A stretch of DNA of 56,817 nt from a virus. Numbering within the stretch: position 1 is the first letter of the stretch; every line of letters begins with the position of its first letter. The position numbers and the translations under genes are program-made. Shown piece by piece: positions 6,906 to 47,631 of the stretch. The notes beneath the pieces were generated by a model. The model was not told where the DNA came from. It worked only from the letters and a program-made list of their open reading frames with translations, and made no database searches. Where the stretch lies: positions 1 to 56,817 of the IMG/VR virus record IMGVR_UViG_3300046822_000346; one strand, given 5' to 3'.

Positions 6906-7170
6906 CCACAGCTTTCTCCTCACCGTGGCAATGCCGAGTGCGGGGGATGACCCAAACGACTTGGCCCTAGCCAAAGCTCTATTAGAGGCCCCCAAACCGA
7001 TCGATATCGTGCGGCCCGGTGGCGAAGTGATCGGCCAGTTGCTCGATGCCACGCCGACCGAGGGTGACAAGATTCACCTGCGCCTCGTATCTAATGAGGG
7101 CATGGATCCGTACGTGTTCCTAGAGCAGATGGGGGACGTACAGTTCCGCATCAATGGGGAACTCAGATGA
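6898..7170 (+). CDS. Hypothetical protein, first gene of the deazaguanine cluster
   Basis: 90 residues, ATG at 6898 overlapping the upstream gene; its TGA overlaps the queD ATG. Strands such as KPIDIVRPGGEVIGQLLDA and DKIHLRLVSNEG suggest a small beta-rich fold. I do not recognise it. Tight coupling to queD suggests a role in, or co-expression with, base modification. Confidence 0.6.
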   Translation: MPDHSFLLTVAMPSAGDDPNDLALAKALLEAPKPIDIVRPGGEVIGQLLDATPTEGDKIHLRLVSNEGMDPYVFLEQMGDVQFRINGELR

Positions 7171-7652
7171 TCACAGGACTCAAGACCAAGATCGTCAAAC
7201 AATTTTCGTTCGACGCGAGCCACCAACTCCCGCAGCATTCTGGGCAGTGTGCTCGTCTGCACGGCCACACCTACAAAGTGGAACTCGAGTTGACGGGCGA
7301 GGTGAAACCCGTCGACGGCCGCTCTGATGGCGGCATGATCGTGGACTTTGGGGACGTCAAGAAAGCCTTCGAGGCCACGTGCGGGTTCCTGGATCACCGT
7401 TTCCTCTGCCCGCTACGCAACCGGGATGTCAACGTGCTCCACGCCGAGAATGAGTTCGTCACCATCCAGTATCTCAACACCGGCCAAGAGCTGTGCCTGC
7501 CGCGGAGCAATGTGGCATTCGTAGACGTAGAGAACACCACCGCGGAACTTTTGGCCGCGTTCATCTACGAGCGGCTGATATTCCTAGTTCCCGAACTCAC
7601 CGCCGTGCGGGTCTGGGAAACGCCGACCGCCTTCGCGGAGGTGCGCCCATGA
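7167..7652 (+). CDS. queD: 6-carboxy-tetrahydropterin synthase
   Basis: 161 residues. It converts dihydroneopterin triphosphate to 6-carboxy-tetrahydropterin, the second step toward preQ0. Zinc-binding His residues are visible in FDASHQLP and LHGHTYKVELE; the catalytic Cys lies in GQCARLHGHT; GMIVDFGDVK and LDHRFL complete the family pattern. Its start overlaps the upstream stop (ATGA), and its stop overlaps queE the same way, so the cluster is translationally coupled. Confidence 0.9.
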   Translation: MITGLKTKIVKQFSFDASHQLPQHSGQCARLHGHTYKVELELTGEVKPVDGRSDGGMIVDFGDVKKAFEATCGFLDHRFLCPLRNRDVNVLHAENEFVTIQYLNTGQELCLPRSNVAFVDVENTTAELLAAFIYERLIFLVPELTAVRVWETPTAFAEVRP

Positions 7653-8425
7653 AGATCAACATGCCAGATGCAACCCAAGCGGTCGAGACCAAGATGCCGG
7701 TACTCGAAGTGTTCGGGCCGGTGGTACAAGGCGAGGGTGCGCTCATCGGGCGCCAGACATTCTTTGTACGCCTGGGGTATTGCGACTACCATTGTTCTTG
7801 GTGTGACACCCTGTACGCGGTAGATCCCAAGACGGTGCTAGAGCAGGCCAGATGGCTTACCACCACCCAGATCGTCAACCAGATCATGACCCTCGATATG
7901 TTCCGCGACAGCAGTTACCGCACGCCGTGGGTGACGATCTCGGGCGGCAACCCCGCGCTGCAGAAGAAGGGCCTAGGACCTCTGATCCACATGCTCCAGA
8001 TGCTCGGGTACCAAGTCGCGGTGGAGACGCAAGGCTCGTACTGGAACGATGCCCTGGAACTGGCGGACCTCGTGACGTGTTCGCCGAAACCCCCCAGCTC
8101 GGACATGATCACGAACTGGAAGATCTTGGACAAGTTCGCAGCCCGATTGGCGGGGCGTATCGCGTTCAAGGTAGTCGTGTTTGACGAGACAGACTACAAC
8201 TACGCCAAACAGGTGTACCAACGCTACCCACAGTTGGCGGCCCACGATTTCTACCTGCAGGCCGGAACTCCGGCCTTGGGCGATGATCCGGCCCCGTATG
8301 CTCAGGCCTTAGTTGAGCGGCTCACGTGGTTAGTGGATCGTGTGACAAGTGACCCGGACATGGCGTACGCCGTGCCGCTGTTCCAGATGCACACGCTGCT
8401 CTTCGGACAGCGGCGGGGGATCTGA
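7649..8425 (+). CDS. queE: 7-carboxy-7-deazaguanine synthase (radical SAM)
   Basis: 258 residues. It is the radical SAM enzyme that contracts carboxy-tetrahydropterin to 7-carboxy-7-deazaguanine. The iron-sulfur motif CxxxCxxC is seen in GYCDYHCSWCDT near residue 50. The substrate region FGPVVQGEGALIGRQTFFVR and SGGNPALQ are also typical of the family. The start ATG overlaps the queD stop. It belongs to the preQ0 pathway together with queD, folE and the distant queC. Confidence 0.92.
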   Translation: MKINMPDATQAVETKMPVLEVFGPVVQGEGALIGRQTFFVRLGYCDYHCSWCDTLYAVDPKTVLEQARWLTTTQIVNQIMTLDMFRDSSYRTPWVTISGGNPALQKKGLGPLIHMLQMLGYQVAVETQGSYWNDALELADLVTCSPKPPSSDMITNWKILDKFAARLAGRIAFKVVVFDETDYNYAKQVYQRYPQLAAHDFYLQAGTPALGDDPAPYAQALVERLTWLVDRVTSDPDMAYAVPLFQMHTLLFGQRRGI

Positions 8426-8426
8426 C

Positions 8427-8621
8427 ATGGTAGACGTTTCACCCAACGGACCATACGGGCGCGCCAAGCTCTCGGTGAACCTAGCCCCGCAAACACCCCT
8501 TGAGATACCATTGCCCGGTATTTCAAGCGGCCAGGATCAATGGAACGAGGTCTTCGCACGGCTGTTGGCCCAGATTGCTGAAGAGACGCATCGCATCGCG
8601 CGAGCGTTGGAGCGCAGATAA
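8427..8621 (+). CDS. Small hypothetical protein inside the preQ0 operon
   Basis: 64 residues between queE and folE, with one base to the former and a one-base stop/start overlap (TAATG) with the latter. The N-terminal half is Pro-rich (NLAPQTPLEIPLPGI); the C-terminal half is an amphipathic helix (EVFARLLAQIAEETHRIARAL). I do not recognise it. Its position suggests an accessory to deazaguanine synthesis or insertion. Confidence 0.6.
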   Translation: MVDVSPNGPYGRAKLSVNLAPQTPLEIPLPGISSGQDQWNEVFARLLAQIAEETHRIARALERR

Positions 8622-9310
8622 TGGACAGTGTACAAGATGCTCCGATCCAGGGGATCGCGGCCGCCATGCCCGAGGGGCGCATATTCAACGACGTTGCCCG
8701 GTTCTTGACGAGCAACCTGTCAGAGGAGGGCGCTACCTTAGACGAGCGATACAACGCCATCCACGCGGCTACCGCGATACTGCTAAAGGCTATCCGGGCG
8801 GATTGGGACCCAGGAACCAAAGACACTCCGGCACGCGTAGCCAAGATGTGGCTAGAAGAATTGGCCGCGGGTGTGGACTACGATCCAGCAGAACATCTGA
8901 GCAAGGTGTTCGACGAAGATTTTCGCGAGATGGTAGCGGTACATGACGTACCGTTTTACTCGACCTGCTGTCATCACCTTGTTCCCTTCTACGGGGTAGC
9001 CCATATTGGGTACATTCCGCAGGGCAAAGTGGTCGGACTCTCTAAGCTCGCCAGAGTCCTTGAAGGCTATTCTCGACAACCCTCTGTTCAGGAACGTATT
9101 ACGGCACAGGTGGCCGATGCGATCGAGGAGCACCTACAGCCCCTTGGTACGATCGTGGTGCTGCGAGCGACACACATGTGCATGTGCATGCGGGGTGTCC
9201 AGAAACCTGGCAGTCTCACCACTACCTCAGCAGTACGAGGCGTCTTCAAAGAGCGCGACAATCTCGCGCGCGAGGAGTTCTTCGCGTTGGTGGGTCGCGG
9301 CAATGGCTGA
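8621..9310 (+). CDS. folE: GTP cyclohydrolase I
   Basis: 229 residues. It opens GTP to dihydroneopterin triphosphate, the entry reaction for preQ0. Visible family motifs are FYSTCCHHLVPFYG (zinc Cys and His), GLSKLARVLEGYSRQPSVQERIT, and ATHMCMCMRGVQKPGS carrying the second zinc Cys. Encoding its own FolE lets the phage feed the pathway independently of the host. It overlaps the next gene by 8 bases. Confidence 0.93.
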   Translation: MDSVQDAPIQGIAAAMPEGRIFNDVARFLTSNLSEEGATLDERYNAIHAATAILLKAIRADWDPGTKDTPARVAKMWLEELAAGVDYDPAEHLSKVFDEDFREMVAVHDVPFYSTCCHHLVPFYGVAHIGYIPQGKVVGLSKLARVLEGYSRQPSVQERITAQVADAIEEHLQPLGTIVVLRATHMCMCMRGVQKPGSLTTTSAVRGVFKERDNLAREEFFALVGRGNG

Positions 9311-9632
9311 GACGCAGGGGTACAGAGATGAGCAGGTGGAGCGTTTCTGGGAGGAAGTGGCCCACACTATGAGCCTGGCACAAGACGTGTTCACCGCACG
9401 GGCTCAGGCCTATGATGGAGTCTCGGTGCTCGATAAGTTCCTGTACGGAGACAAGTCCATCTTTACTCTGGTGTGGATCAAGATCCAACGGTTACGCTCG
9501 TGCATGTTTCGCAAAGAGCAGGGCCAGAACGTAGAGGAGGCGCTTGAGGATTCGATTCTCGACGCTATCAACTATCTGGCCATGCTCCGAGCATGGTACG
9601 TGATTTACCGCGAGGACAAGGGCCATGACTGA
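9303..9632 (+). CDS. Nmad1/DUF1599-like nucleotide-modification-associated protein
   Basis: 109 residues, all-helical. The layout ARAQAYDG, then KSIFTLVWIKIQRLRS, then EEALEDSILDAINYLAMLRAW fits the DUF1599 domain (nucleotide modification associated domain 1), related to MazG-like folds and often found next to phage base-modification genes. It overlaps folE and dpdA, so co-translation with them is expected. The exact function is unknown; handling of nucleotide pools is a reasonable inference. Confidence 0.6.
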   Translation: MAETQGYRDEQVERFWEEVAHTMSLAQDVFTARAQAYDGVSVLDKFLYGDKSIFTLVWIKIQRLRSCMFRKEQGQNVEEALEDSILDAINYLAMLRAWYVIYREDKGHD

Positions 9633-10443
9633 CTTCATCCCGATCTTGCCCAACCAGCTCTTGGTACCAATTGCCAGCTTTCGGAAATGGCACTTGGTAT
9701 TGGCACAGATGCTAGAGTCCAACGAGGCGTACCGCGACTTCTATCTCAAGCTCAGCCAGAATAGCGAGACACGCATTATCCTGGACAACGGTGCCTACGA
9801 GCTCGGAACCAGTGTCAGCGACGAGCTACTGGCGTACTGGGCCGAGCGGCTGCGACCTTACGAGGTAGTGTTGCCCGATGTCATGAAGCGCGGGCCTGAG
9901 ACCTTGGATCGCACTGCCGGGTGGCTCAAACAGTACGGACAACGCAACCAACGGTACATGATTGTACCGCAATCCGACAATATCTTCGGGTGGTTTGTCA
10001 ACCTGCGTAAACTACTCGAAGGGCCTGCCGGGGAATATACGATCACGATCGGAGTGCCAAAACACATGGCGAGCCTAGATTCTGACGGCCTAGGACGCCT
10101 GGAGATTCTGAGCACCCTGCACAGACGGGGCTACTCTTCGCGGCACGCAGTGCATCTGCTCGGCACCGATGATCGGCTCCAAGAGCCACCGCACCTGGAC
10201 GAGTTCTCGTGGGTCCGCTCGTTTGACTCGGCCAAACCTGCGATCTGGGCGTACCGCTGTGCGATGCTGGATCCGCGCCGTGAACCGCTGGCCGCGTTGC
10301 CACCGTTCAACCGTCCCGACGGATTCTTTGACCTGGAGTTCCCGTTCACGTTCTTGTACATGTTGAATCTCACGCGTTGGAACATCAACGCGGTTGAGAC
10401 GTGGGTGCGCGCCGGTATTCCGGTCGCGTATGGAGTGTACTAA
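9625..10443 (+). CDS. dpdA: DNA 7-deazaguanine transglycosylase, DpdA-like
   Basis: 272 residues. It resembles the phage DpdA enzymes, DNA relatives of tRNA-guanine transglycosylase that swap guanine in DNA for preQ0 or a derivative. The signature ILDNGAYELG near residue 53 carries the Asp expected to bind the base. VVLPDVMKRG, YMIVPQSDN, YTITIGVPKHMAS and AVHLLGTDD follow, as expected for a TIM-barrel TGT fold. It is the last step encoded by the operon. The stop overlaps the polymerase ATG (TAATG). Confidence 0.82.
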   Translation: MTDFIPILPNQLLVPIASFRKWHLVLAQMLESNEAYRDFYLKLSQNSETRIILDNGAYELGTSVSDELLAYWAERLRPYEVVLPDVMKRGPETLDRTAGWLKQYGQRNQRYMIVPQSDNIFGWFVNLRKLLEGPAGEYTITIGVPKHMASLDSDGLGRLEILSTLHRRGYSSRHAVHLLGTDDRLQEPPHLDEFSWVRSFDSAKPAIWAYRCAMLDPRREPLAALPPFNRPDGFFDLEFPFTFLYMLNLTRWNINAVETWVRAGIPVAYGVY

Positions 10444-12980
10444 TGTCAACAGCGACTTTGCTCTTCCCACAGCCGCGCTGCCAGGAGTGTCTCATGCGGC
10501 CCGTACAAGGGTGCGCACCGGTCTCTTCCAACGGGAACTCTGATGCCAAGCTCCTGATCTTGACCGATCATCCCTCAGCCGCCGACATGCACAACGGACA
10601 ACTGCTTTCGGACCGTACTGGCTCGCTCCTGTACCAACTGTTGACCGAGCTTCATGTGCCCACGGCCAAGCTCTATTACCTGTCGGCATTGTGGTGCGCG
10701 CCTGAGGACTACGACTCCAAGCGGCCAGCAACGGTGACCAATTCACTCCCGGCGTGCCGCGATCGGCTATACTCCGAGATTCGCAGTCTGCCGAAACGTC
10801 GCGTGATCTTGGCCTTAGGTAACAACGCAGTACAGGCACTCACCGGTAAGCCAACCAATATCTCGCGTACCGCAGGGCGTGTCGAGTGGCACGAGGAGTT
10901 ACAGGTCTGGGTGGTCTACACCAGTCACCCCAAGTTTCTCTTGGTGCAGCCCGAAGCGATGCCCGAGTTTCGATTGTCGATTCAACGTGCGCGCCAATAC
11001 CTGATCGAAGGGCCGGGCCCTAGAGAGGCGATCCCGACCCGAAAGATCGTCGCTCAATCTGCTAGCGAAGCCGTGCGGTTACTCCGGGGCTTGGACAAGC
11101 CACTCATGGCCACGGACATTGAGACTGATGGCTTTGACTTCCTCACCCAGGACATTATCGGTATCGGGTTCTGCCAAGAAGTTGGCACTTCGATTCTCAT
11201 ACCAGGAGTGCTGTGTTACAACTCCAAGGTCAAGGCGGCGCTCAAAGCGCTCTACGAAGGGCCGACCAAGTTCATCTGGCACAACGGGAAGTTTGACGTT
11301 AAATTCATTCGGCACCAACTGGGGATCGCCGCACGGGTTGACATTGACACTATGTTGATGCACTACTTGCTCGACGAGCGTTCTGGCGACTCGGGCGGGT
11401 ACCACGACCTCAAGGGCTTGGCACAAAAGTACTGCGACGCGCCAGAGTGGGAAGCGGACATCAAGCAGTATCTGCCGAGTAAGGCTACCCCATACTCGGC
11501 GATCCCACACGCGGTGCGGATGACCTACCATGCCTACGACTGCGACTACACGTTGCGCCTCTACTACGAGCTAGACAAGCTCCACGCCCAGGAGCCGAAG
11601 AGTCGCCACGGATACCCGCAACCGATCGAGGCCGCGAATCTCTTGTATCGAGCCGCCAATGCCTTGGCGCGTGTAGAGATGCACGGCGCGTTGATCGATG
11701 TAGCGGCGCTCCACACTCACCGCACGCGCATGGAGGCGGAGCTCGACACGCTCCAAGCGCAGGTCAAAGCGAACATCCCCGACGGCGCGATGTACACGGG
11801 CCCGTTGTTCTCGATCAACTCGCCCAAGCAGATCTCGCACATCATGTACAATGTGCTGGGACTGCCGCCCTACGAGGATCCCAAGGTCAGCGATACCTCG
11901 ACCGCATCCAAGGTGTTACGCGCTTACGAGGATCGTCACCCGTTCATATACCACTTGGCGCGCTATCGTGAAATCTCGCACCTGTACAAGGTGTACATCA
12001 AAGGGTTTGAGGAGCGCTTAGATGACAGGGCTCGTTTACACACCGAATATAATCTCCACGGTACGACTACTGGTCGGCTTTCGTCGCGGAATCCCAATCT
12101 ACAGAATGTTCCACGTGATAGTATCATCAAGCAACTCTTCGTCGCACCTCCCGGGTATGTTTTCTGCAACGCAGACTACAAACAACTGGAGGTTCGCGTG
12201 GGTGCCTACTACTCCCACGACCACCAGCTTATCGCGGACCTTGGCAAGGATCTACACTGGGAGGTTGCAACCCAGGTGTTCGCGGATTTCGTGGGACGCT
12301 TTCTGGGACTGGTACAACGCGAAGACATTGACGGCCTCATTGCACTAGCTGACAGCTCGACCATCATGACCGATGTGGCGGCGCGTATCCATCACACGCC
12401 GCGCGAACAATTGAGTGTCCAGAAACTCCACGATTGGATCCGCGGACGCTTGCGGTTTGCGACCAAGTTCATTACCTTCGGGATCTTGTACGGTCGCGGG
12501 GCGGCATCGCTTGCCGACCCGTTTAACGGCCTAGGTTGCACGTTAGAGGAGGCCAAAGCGTTCTTGCATGCTTGGCACAAGCGCTACCCGAGCATGTCTA
12601 AGACGATGCTAGAACTCGAGACACAGGCCGAGACACGCGGTTGGGTGGAGACACCTCGCGGCAGGCGGCGCCGCTTCCCGCTCATCACAGATGTCAACCA
12701 ATGGGCGATCAAGCATCAAGCCGTGAACATGCCGATCCAGAGTCTGGCCTCGGATATGACACTGGCAAGCTTGACTACCTTGGAGCGCGAGCTTCCTGCA
12801 CGCGATCTCGGTTATGTGGTACTCACGGTGCATGACGCCATTGCCTTTGAGCTCAAGGAAGATCGCCTCGATGAGGCCACCACATTGATCCGTGACATCA
12901 TGGAGAATGCGTGGCCTAACGATATCATCCGGTTCGAGGTCGACTTGGCTACCGGCCCGAACTGGTATACCTGCAAATAG
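10443..12980 (+). CDS. Family-4 uracil-DNA glycosylase fused to DNA polymerase I
   Basis: 845 residues. Residues 1-195 look like a family-4 UDG: four iron-sulfur Cys at C13, C16, C85 and C105 (PRCQEC, LWCAPED, LPACRD) and the SHPKFLLVQP region. A 3'-5' exonuclease follows (DIETDG at about 225; HNGKFDVKFI; YDCDYTLRLY), then a family A polymerase palm with motif A DYKQLEVRVG, motif B KFITFGILYGRG and motif C TVHDAIAF. It is the replicative polymerase. The fused UDG domain would put uracil or deaminated-base recognition at the fork. The UDG active-site motif is divergent, so it may bind rather than cut. Confidence 0.9.
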   Translation: MSTATLLFPQPRCQECLMRPVQGCAPVSSNGNSDAKLLILTDHPSAADMHNGQLLSDRTGSLLYQLLTELHVPTAKLYYLSALWCAPEDYDSKRPATVTNSLPACRDRLYSEIRSLPKRRVILALGNNAVQALTGKPTNISRTAGRVEWHEELQVWVVYTSHPKFLLVQPEAMPEFRLSIQRARQYLIEGPGPREAIPTRKIVAQSASEAVRLLRGLDKPLMATDIETDGFDFLTQDIIGIGFCQEVGTSILIPGVLCYNSKVKAALKALYEGPTKFIWHNGKFDVKFIRHQLGIAARVDIDTMLMHYLLDERSGDSGGYHDLKGLAQKYCDAPEWEADIKQYLPSKATPYSAIPHAVRMTYHAYDCDYTLRLYYELDKLHAQEPKSRHGYPQPIEAANLLYRAANALARVEMHGALIDVAALHTHRTRMEAELDTLQAQVKANIPDGAMYTGPLFSINSPKQISHIMYNVLGLPPYEDPKVSDTSTASKVLRAYEDRHPFIYHLARYREISHLYKVYIKGFEERLDDRARLHTEYNLHGTTTGRLSSRNPNLQNVPRDSIIKQLFVAPPGYVFCNADYKQLEVRVGAYYSHDHQLIADLGKDLHWEVATQVFADFVGRFLGLVQREDIDGLIALADSSTIMTDVAARIHHTPREQLSVQKLHDWIRGRLRFATKFITFGILYGRGAASLADPFNGLGCTLEEAKAFLHAWHKRYPSMSKTMLELETQAETRGWVETPRGRRRRFPLITDVNQWAIKHQAVNMPIQSLASDMTLASLTTLERELPARDLGYVVLTVHDAIAFELKEDRLDEATTLIRDIMENAWPNDIIRFEVDLATGPNWYTCK

Positions 12981-44609: not shown

Positions 44610-45899
44610 TCACCTCAGGCTCCGTATATTCGGGCGCGGTGCCAAGTTCAGCACAGTGAACGCGCCAGAAGTTGCATCGATCTGGTCTTTAAACGCGTGC
44701 GGGAACGCGAGGGCCTCTTCGAGCCAAGTATTGATCCAGTTGCCTCGTACCAGAAACAGGTTGCCGGCCCGAGCTGCAGAGCTCAGCGGGCCGGCGCGTG
44801 AGACTTTGTCCCGATCGGGGCGGTACGGATTCACATTGTAGCCTCGCAGTATATTGCGCTGATAATGTGAGATGGTATTAATACCACCAGAGCCAGGTTC
44901 TTGTTCAATATACACCGGCGTATTCGTACCGTCCAGCTCTGCAGCCAAACGGACCGTATTCTCAACCGCCAGAGGATCGCCGCGAAAGCGCACCATGTCG
45001 AGTAACCAATACTGCCCTTGGTGTGTTGCCAGTTTCGCACCCGCTGTGAACGCGCTAGTAGTATTGCGCGTTGCTGCAAAGTCCCAGAACCGTACAATCT
45101 TAGAGTGCATCGGGTAGTCGTCGACAATCTGGAAGTATTCGCGCTTGAACAGTTCGCCGTCGGGGATCACGTTCCAGTCGCCATTAAGCAACTGCGCCCG
45201 CGTGATCGGATCCAGGTTCTCCAACGAGCGTTGATAGTCCTCTTGGTCCAGGTGCGGGTTATCGGTCAGTTTGGCCGGAACGAACACGCGCCCGAACTTG
45301 CGCCCATCAATCAAGAATCGCTGGCGCACCCATTCGTGGCCTAGGCCGCCCGGGTTGCTGGCGCTCCGCACGCGTGTCGGGATACCGAGCTCGATGCGGC
45401 GCCGTTTGCGCGAGAACAGATACAAGTACCACGGCTCGTAGAACTGCGTCAGCTCGTCGAAGCCAATAAATTGGAACGCGGCGCCCTGGTACTGGTAGAT
45501 ATCATTCTTGGAATCGAGGTAGCCAAACGAGATGGTAGCGCCGCTGGGGAATTGCCACTGATGTAACGCGCTATCGTACTTGACATCGTTGCGCGAACCC
45601 CACCATTCCATGGAGAGTGGAATCAGCGCGCCCGGTTTCGAGAGATCGGCAAACGTGCGGCGCAAGATCAGGGCGTTGTATCCTGGTACGTCAACATACT
45701 GCGCTGCAGCGGCCAACATACCGTACGACTTGCCGCCGCCCGCTGCGCCCCCGTAGAAAACTTCCTCGACATCATTACAGAGCAAAAAAGCAAGTTGGCG
45801 AGTGGTAGGCTCCCCAACTATAAACTCATTCCAATGAAGCGACACCCGTTCCCGGATATTCTCGAGAACCGGACCCGTCCATTTAGGTATCGCCGCCAT
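44610..45899 (-). CDS. Terminase large subunit
   Basis: 429 residues from ATG 45899. ATPase: Walker A-like GGAAGGGKSYG, Walker B GFDELTQF. Nuclease: RFWDFAATRNT, LDMVRFRGDP, EQEPGSGG and KDQIDATSGAF. It pumps DNA into proheads and cuts it. Overlaps the small coiled-coil gene upstream by 17 bases. Confidence 0.93.
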   Translation of the reverse strand: MAAIPKWTGPVLENIRERVSLHWNEFIVGEPTTRQLAFLLCNDVEEVFYGGAAGGGKSYGMLAAAAQYVDVPGYNALILRRTFADLSKPGALIPLSMEWWGSRNDVKYDSALHQWQFPSGATISFGYLDSKNDIYQYQGAAFQFIGFDELTQFYEPWYLYLFSRKRRRIELGIPTRVRSASNPGGLGHEWVRQRFLIDGRKFGRVFVPAKLTDNPHLDQEDYQRSLENLDPITRAQLLNGDWNVIPDGELFKREYFQIVDDYPMHSKIVRFWDFAATRNTTSAFTAGAKLATHQGQYWLLDMVRFRGDPLAVENTVRLAAELDGTNTPVYIEQEPGSGGINTISHYQRNILRGYNVNPYRPDRDKVSRAGPLSSAARAGNLFLVRGNWINTWLEEALAFPHAFKDQIDATSGAFTVLNLAPRPNIRSLR

Positions 45900-46160: not shown

Positions 46161-46895
46161 CTACAGATCTCCGCCAGTGTGCAGATCGAGACGTGCCACT
46201 TCGCAGGTCTCTTCCCAGGTGCAAGCATACGGCGTCGTATCGTACACGTGCGCCTGATACAGGGCCTGGCGCCGCTCCGAACACGTGCCACACTTGCCGC
46301 AGTGAATATCGCCACCCTCGTAACAGGACCACGTCTCCTGCACCGGCACACTATAAATCTCAGCCATACGCGCGATGTTCGTCTTGGACAACATCACGAA
46401 CGGCGCCCGCAGGATCGGCAGTGGGTCCGCCCATTCATTGCCCAATCGCAACGCGGTATTGAGTGCTGCGATGAACTCCGGCCGACAGTCGGGGTAGATC
46501 GCATGATCCCCTGCATGTACCCCAGTATACACCCTGGAGGCATGTTCCGCCACCGCAATCCCATAGGCGATGGAGAGCATGATCGCGTTGCGGTTCGGCA
46601 CAACCGTTGCCTTCATGTTGTCGGCAGCATAGTGGCCCATAGGCACTGCGCCGCCGTGAGCTGTCAGCGCCGAGCCGTGGAGCAGTTCGGCCATGAAGTC
46701 CATCTCGATCACGATGTGCTCGGCATGTAGCCGTCTGGCAGTTTGTGCCGCGAACTGGAGCTCTTTGCGATGCCGCTGGCCGTAGTCAAAACTCAGCAGG
46801 AGCAGGTCATCCTGCACGGTCCCATTGCCGCTCACCACATGAGCAAGCGTGACGCTGTCCAAGCCGCCGCTACAGATCACAATAGACTTCGCCAA
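46161..46895 (-). CDS. queC: 7-cyano-7-deazaguanine (preQ0) synthase
   Basis: 244 residues from TTG 46895 (AGGAG upstream). It converts carboxy-deazaguanine to preQ0 with ATP and ammonia. PP-loop motif CSGGLDSVT near the N-terminus; C-terminal zinc site CYEGGDIHCGKCGTC. No fused amidotransferase domain. It lies about 36 kb from dpdA and on the opposite strand, inside the terminase region, with its own promoter. Confidence 0.93.
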   Translation of the reverse strand: MAKSIVICSGGLDSVTLAHVVSGNGTVQDDLLLLSFDYGQRHRKELQFAAQTARRLHAEHIVIEMDFMAELLHGSALTAHGGAVPMGHYAADNMKATVVPNRNAIMLSIAYGIAVAEHASRVYTGVHAGDHAIYPDCRPEFIAALNTALRLGNEWADPLPILRAPFVMLSKTNIARMAEIYSVPVQETWSCYEGGDIHCGKCGTCSERRQALYQAHVYDTTPYACTWEETCEVARLDLHTGGDL

Positions 46896-47016: not shown

Positions 47017-47631
47017 TCACTCGTCGGCTTCCACCACTTCTACCAACGTGTTCGGATCGCGCGTGTGGATCGCGGCCTCAAACGCGCCGACTTCGTCGAG
47101 AATCTGCAACACTTGCGCCAACTGGTTATCGGGGAGCCTCTTGACCGGCGACTCAATCTGCGGCCGCTCTTCTTGCTGCCCAGGAATACGGAACTCGACC
47201 GCGTCCGACCAGTTGCCCGACAGACCGCCCTTGGTGAGCCAGATCTCGGGCTTCTCGTACCACACGCGCTGTTCCGCCGCCGAACGGGCTACCCCGATAG
47301 CTGCCATCACCGCGACATAGAAAAGCGCGTAGGTGGTCAGCGCCTCCTCATCCGGCAACACGTCGTATTCCTGCTTGCCCCAGTTGAGCCAGTTCCAGAG
47401 GCGATTGCCGACCAGCCCGCACGAGGCAGCAGCCGCCTGGGGTGAGGCGCCTTGGCAAATCTGTTGGCAGATCTCCAGGGTTAATTCCGGCGATAGCTTG
47501 GTACGTGCCCCAGCGCGTGAAACAAGTTCCCGCACGGCATCGGTCTCGACAGTATCGTCGATGTCCTCTGGCGCCGGCCGGTTACCGCGACGCTTCATGT
47601 TGATATCGAGCTTGGCCAATTTCTTCCTCAC
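47017..47631 (-). CDS. Terminase small subunit candidate
   Basis: 204 residues from GTG 47631, or about 193 from ATG 47598. KLSPELTLEICQQICQGASPQAAAASCGLVGNRLWNWLNWGKQE is a helix-turn-helix typical of small terminases that recognise the packaging site. The following helix and position upstream of the large subunit support this. Overlaps the upstream small gene by 50 bases if the longer start is used. Confidence 0.75.
   Translation of the reverse strand: MRKKLAKLDINMKRRGNRPAPEDIDDTVETDAVRELVSRAGARTKLSPELTLEICQQICQGASPQAAAASCGLVGNRLWNWLNWGKQEYDVLPDEEALTTYALFYVAVMAAIGVARSAAEQRVWYEKPEIWLTKGGLSGNWSDAVEFRIPGQQEERPQIESPVKRLPDNQLAQVLQILDEVGAFEAAIHTRDPNTLVEVVEADE

Follow-up and report, generated by a model that had tools for sequence, protein, structure and literature searches.

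A phage record with a probable route from GTP to preQ0 in DNA, including a compact transglycosylase of the CP220 type

The window analysed here is a single IMG/VR virus record (IMGVR_UViG_3300046822_000346; 56,817 bases), which derives from a tailed phage, as a library scan identified major head protein, portal, terminase, and tape-measure genes in it. It also encodes FolE, QueD, QueE, and QueC enzymes for synthesis of 7-cyano-7-deazaguanine (preQ0) and a DpdA-type transglycosylase. The virus probably makes its own preQ0 and inserts it into its own DNA as protection from restriction, with 2'-deoxy-7-cyano-7-deazaguanosine (dPreQ0) as the most likely end product; preQ0 in DNA is a known means by which phages counter host restriction enzymes. 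A previous sequence-only reading of this DNA had proposed that its genes suffice to make preQ0 and insert it into DNA, and all five predicted enzymes are indeed present with their active-site motifs:

queD, 7167..7652, + strand: 6-carboxytetrahydropterin synthase, 161 aa; PF01242 (PTPS) 4.9e-30, PHROG QueD-like 8.4e-21
queE, 7649..8425, + strand: 7-carboxy-7-deazaguanine synthase, 258 aa; PHROG QueE-like 9.9e-41
folE, 8621..9310, + strand: GTP cyclohydrolase I, 229 aa, with zinc-site motifs; PF01227 (GTP_cyclohydroI) 1.4e-62
dpdA, 9625..10443, + strand: predicted DNA guanine transglycosylase of the CP220 type (DpdA3-like), 272 aa
queC, 46161..46895, - strand: preQ0 synthase, 244 aa, single domain; PF06508 5.3e-60

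The same reading had placed queD, queE, folE, and dpdA in one overlapping operon with queC elsewhere, and both placements are correct. Together with two small open reading frames (ORFs), the four genes form a tight + strand operon (7167-10443) that continues into polA, in which neighbouring genes share 1-8 bases or almost touch. QueD contains the C28-ARLHGH motif and its best PDB match is a CPH4 synthase (4ntm, 4.8e-19). QueE contains the radical-SAM CxxxCxxC motif; its best solved match is the 7-carboxy-7-deazaguanine (CDG) synthase 5tgs (3.6e-49), in an alignment that covers residues 15-258 and runs to the C-terminus. The best solved match of FolE is the GTP cyclohydrolase 4uqf (2.9e-53).

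QueC carries the complete signature of canonical (cluster 1) QueC proteins, which comprises SGGxDS, YxQxHxxE, VPxRN, YPDC, and a Cys4 zinc motif with CY, several of them established by mutagenesis (Libby et al. 2026, PMC13329287). The corresponding segments in the window are SGGLDS, YGQRHRKE, VPNRN, YPDC, and CY...CxxCxxC, with a zinc spacing of C-x7-C instead of C-x8-C that is shared with uncultured locus L003 and Gordonia phage Sour. It is 53% identical to QueC of L003, 49% to that of Sour, 44% to that of Lars, a relative standing in for Rosebush in this comparison, and 30% to that of Campylobacter phage CP220.

The 272-aa DpdA has no Pfam match and a weak match to one PHROG of unknown function, so family libraries give it no name; the earlier dpdA call is nonetheless upheld by its fold and motifs. 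An AlphaFold2 model, computed from the window DpdA and fetched viral relatives, adopts the tRNA-guanine transglycosylase (TGT) fold (pLDDT 93, pTM 0.91). Its four best Foldseek matches in the PDB are TGTs, as are all 50 of the 50 best entries listed after structural re-alignment (Z 16.9-17.4; VIA 17.4). A profile search of solved chains returned as its best match not a TGT but the bacterial DNA-guanine transglycosylase 7ui4, a DpdA (6.1e-4), whose SIDST motif aligns with D201 of the window protein. We gathered relatives from IMG/VR (51) and from phage records (17); in an alignment of 45 sequences, D54, N55, D85, H177, G180, and D201 are invariant. Based on the predicted fold and the invariant catalytic aspartates, we assign the protein as a transglycosylase.

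Judged by profile comparison, the window DpdA belongs with the CP220-type enzymes. Its profile matches CPT_0056 of CP220 at 4.2e-35, with an hhalign probability of 99.5, and in the tree it shares a supported half with CP220, Flavobacterium phage vB_FspM_immuto, Cellulophaga phage phiST, Bacillus phage BSP7, and Weizmannia phage Youna2. DpdA1 (9g/CAjan type) was ruled out, as neither 9g nor CAjan gave a profile match at E<=10 and the hhalign probability to 9g DpdA is 6, as was DpdA2 (nt-1 type), for which nt-1 likewise gave none at E<=10 and the probability to nt-1 DpdA2 is 4; the profile had no match in Dp-1 either. We take the CPT_0056 family to be the published DpdA3, which Cui et al. in 2023 reportedly described as allowing complete guanine replacement. 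By analogy, this virus may replace nearly all of its deoxyguanosine (dG), and not just about 30%.

These enzymes fit into one pathway. FolE would convert GTP to dihydroneopterin triphosphate, from which QueD would form carboxytetrahydropterin and QueE, in turn, CDG; QueC would then convert CDG, via an amide, to preQ0. The compact CP220-type DpdA would exchange DNA guanine for preQ0 after replication, presumably with D201 forming a covalent enzyme-DNA intermediate. The resulting dPreQ0, possibly at most or all guanines, would shield the DNA from host restriction.

With respect to the end base, the combination of FolE, QueD, QueE, QueC, and DpdA yielded dPreQ0 in CAjan (~32% of G) and Rosebush (~28%) (Hutinet et al. 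2019, PMC6884629), and the window has the gene content of 'group 2' in that study, namely FolE, QueD, QueE, QueC, and a DpdA-type enzyme with no amidotransferase or QueF. As claimed earlier, no queF and no glutamine-amidotransferase fusion is visible, which holds for all of the sequence in the record: the only match to the QueF model is sub-threshold and lies inside FolE, whose T-fold is all that it recognizes, so this candidate was rejected, and QueC is a single domain of 244 aa. Among the scanned ORFs of the record, no Pfam domain was found for an amidotransferase (Gat-QueC, QueF-L), ArcS, a formyltransferase, or a methyltransferase, nor for a nitrile hydratase or other candidate converting enzyme.

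The best surviving alternative is the same pathway ending in the 7-amido base dADG, either because QueC frees its amide intermediate or because an unrecognized enzyme hydrates preQ0. DNA of CP220 and CPt10 was reported as fully dADG, 100% of dG (PMC8306585, citing Crippen 2019), and QueC is known to proceed via an ADG intermediate (PMC13329287). Several observations weigh against dPreQ0 in the window. CP220, the nearest measured relative by DpdA family, carries dADG, although its QueC differs. The window DpdA is only loosely placed within its half of the tree, grouping with locus L004 (86/92), while CP220 and immuto form a separate pair. Many ORFs have no family assignment, and one of them could encode a protein that converts preQ0 further; moreover, no terminal repeats were found in the record, which may be incomplete. 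Because CP220 has queC and no QueF above cut-off, yet contains dADG (PMC8306585, PMC6884629), a gene list alone is not proof of dPreQ0 in a virus with a CP220-type DpdA. The earlier claim of dPreQ0 is thus less certain than gene content suggested, and it is the canonical motifs of QueC that favour it.

These motifs differ among the phages compared. In the Campylobacter phages CP220, CPt10, and WX1 (L069, L079, and L082), QueC reads YGSNHQDKE or QDRE where the canonical motif is YxQxHxxE, and FPDC where it is YPDC; the Gat-QueC of 9g, which makes dG+, has YGC and YPDN, while QueC of CAjan, Lars, and the window has YGQ and YPDC. In Escherichia coli QueC, Y131A is inactive and Y131F partly active (PMC13329287). 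Possibly, QueC of CP220, CPt10, and WX1 goes no further than the amide, so that dADG would arise with no separate enzyme. Since the window QueC is canonical and closest to those of the Rosebush-type phages and Sour, whereas the CP220-type QueC deviates at two motifs, we favour dPreQ0; as, in addition, no nitrile hydratase or similar domain emerged from the ORF scan, dADG appears distinctly unlikely here. The contrast in QueC motifs between dADG and dPreQ0 phages amounts to a simple, testable candidate sequence rule for the end base, based on few independent phages. The YGS form of QueC also occurs in loci L015 and L025. The QueC of immuto (L070) keeps the substrate motifs and lacks the zinc cysteine cluster, though QueF is encoded in this phage.

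Another alternative is that these genes raise the supply of preQ0 or queuosine for host tRNA, with the DpdA-like protein acting on tRNA or inactive. In its favour, the protein folds like a tRNA-guanine transglycosylase, and a queuosine-boosting role has been proposed for phages that carry preQ0 genes but lack DpdA (PMC6884629). We consider this very improbable, however. The window DpdA has ~100 aa fewer than TGT, and C212 is its only cysteine, which leaves no TGT zinc site; its closest solved chain by profile acts on guanine in DNA; its operon is shared with a DNA polymerase both in the window and in relatives; and the DNA of CP220, whose enzyme is of this type, is modified.

Insertion of preQ0 into DNA is also consistent with the gene neighbourhood of DpdA relatives. 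In the 51 IMG/VR loci, which were found with DpdA alone, are not independent of each other, and are in some cases short, a family A polymerase occurs within ~6 kb of dpdA in 44, folE in 33, queE in 21, and queD and queC in 11 each. As a FolE match is present in just 392 of 50,697 phage records, the association of folE with dpdA is not due to chance. BSP7 and Youna2 have the same queD-queE-folE-(small genes)-dpdA-polA arrangement, and immuto and phiST keep part of it. We regard the window as a well-supported addition to known phage DNA hypermodification; because its key enzyme is missed by both Pfam and PHROGs, such phages are likely under-counted.

In contrast to the other pathway genes, which are in the replication module, queC lies 36 kb from the operon, on the opposite strand, between two genes of the packaging module:

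terminase large subunit, 44613..45899, - strand: downstream of queC; phrog_979 1.1e-93
probable small terminase subunit, 47017..47619, - strand: directly upstream of queC; HTH-like, assigned from position and HTH-like sequence, with no library match

The queC gene starts with TTG behind a GGAG-containing Shine-Dalgarno sequence. Its location between terminase genes suggests that modification is possibly coupled to packaging, and the last step of preQ0 synthesis may be timed accordingly. Were the - strand module expressed late, preQ0 synthesis would be confined to that phase, in keeping with insertion after replication and ahead of packaging. An extension of the dPreQ0 reading, which we regard as possible but doubtful, is that a CP220-type transglycosylase combined with a canonical QueC converts nearly all guanines to dPreQ0, well beyond the ~30% seen in CAjan and Rosebush, and that expression from the packaging operon turns on the final biosynthetic step. 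The weakest alternative, a hybrid product in which early CDG is inserted first, so that dCDG and dPreQ0 would occur together or differ by region, draws on the separate position of queC and on phiST, in which the CP220-type DpdA family, queD, queE, and folE are present and no queC was detected, and is scarcely probable, as the timing it presumes for the two modules is conjectural and queC adjoins the other genes in BSP7, Youna2, and several uncultured relatives.

Compared with known systems, the window resembles BSP7 and Youna2 in layout; these share the order queC...queD-queE-folE-(small genes)-dpdA-polA, a homologous DpdA of ~260 aa, and a replication neighbourhood with DUF669, but queC is inside the cluster, a P-loop gene rather than a DUF1599-like gene precedes dpdA, and dpdA is annotated as hypothetical. 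CP220 and CPt10 have the homologous transglycosylase CPT_0056 as well as queC and queD, but their genes are scattered, and they differ in the YGS and FPDC motifs of QueC and in their dADG product. The Rosebush group (Mycobacterium) and Sour contain the same gene set, the closest QueC among isolates, and preQ0 genes that abut the terminase, whereas their DpdA is longer (385 and 357 aa) and all genes are in one cassette. Enterobacteria phage 9g and Escherichia phage CAjan likewise encode FolE, QueD, QueE, and QueC-type enzymes and an inserter of the TGT superfamily; unlike the window, they use a DpdA1 that the window profile does not reach, and 9g makes dG+ with a Gat-QueC. In immuto, a DpdA of the same family, annotated as such, follows queD-queE-folE-pyrophosphohydrolase, but QueF and a formyltransferase are also encoded, so a more elaborate base is expected.

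Two additional variants of the CP220-type DpdA family were observed. A second well-supported group, comprising L009, L011, L013, L014, and similar IMG/VR loci, has the order folE-polA-(~480-aa protein)-small genes-dpdA, with no complete preQ0 set nearby within the stretch examined. Aeromonas phage Ahp1_CNU-2021 (L055) encodes a CP220-type DpdA and folE, and no QueC was detected in it; the base could derive from CDG or depend on the host.

For the window virus itself, no near relative among phages was found by megablast, no tRNA genes were found in the window, and a search with the DpdA alignment across bacterial and archaeal genomes gave no relative and thus no hint of a host. The remaining genes of the operon and its continuation are as follows:

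64-aa ORF between queE and folE, 8427..8621, + strand: closes the gap so that the operon stays contiguous; no assigned function
109-aa protein overlapping folE and dpdA, 9303..9632, + strand: phrog_1485 1.1e-7; weak DUF1599
polA, 10443..12980, + strand: family A DNA polymerase, DNA_pol_A 9e-74; start set by the TAATG overlap with dpdA

The parent ORF of the 64-aa product (8349-8621) has no Pfam or PHROG match. The N-terminus of PolA contains a UDG-superfamily domain (PF03167, 3.5e-15), for which either a base-acting role or a mere DNA-binding aid is conceivable. The 109-aa protein matches DUF1599 (nucleotide modification associated domain 1) with an E-value of 0.0017, which is under the family cut-off, and is possibly a nucleotide pyrophosphohydrolase-like helper; its homologues lie directly 5' of dpdA in L003 (5209-5517) and L008 (5684-6001). 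A fixed partner gene in this position was rejected, as the slot varies among loci (HTH, HNH, MazG, DUF1599, DUF3310, kinases). The MazG, DUF3310, PRA-PH, or kinase-like genes that fill it in other loci hint that a helper in nucleotide metabolism is a recurrent occupant.

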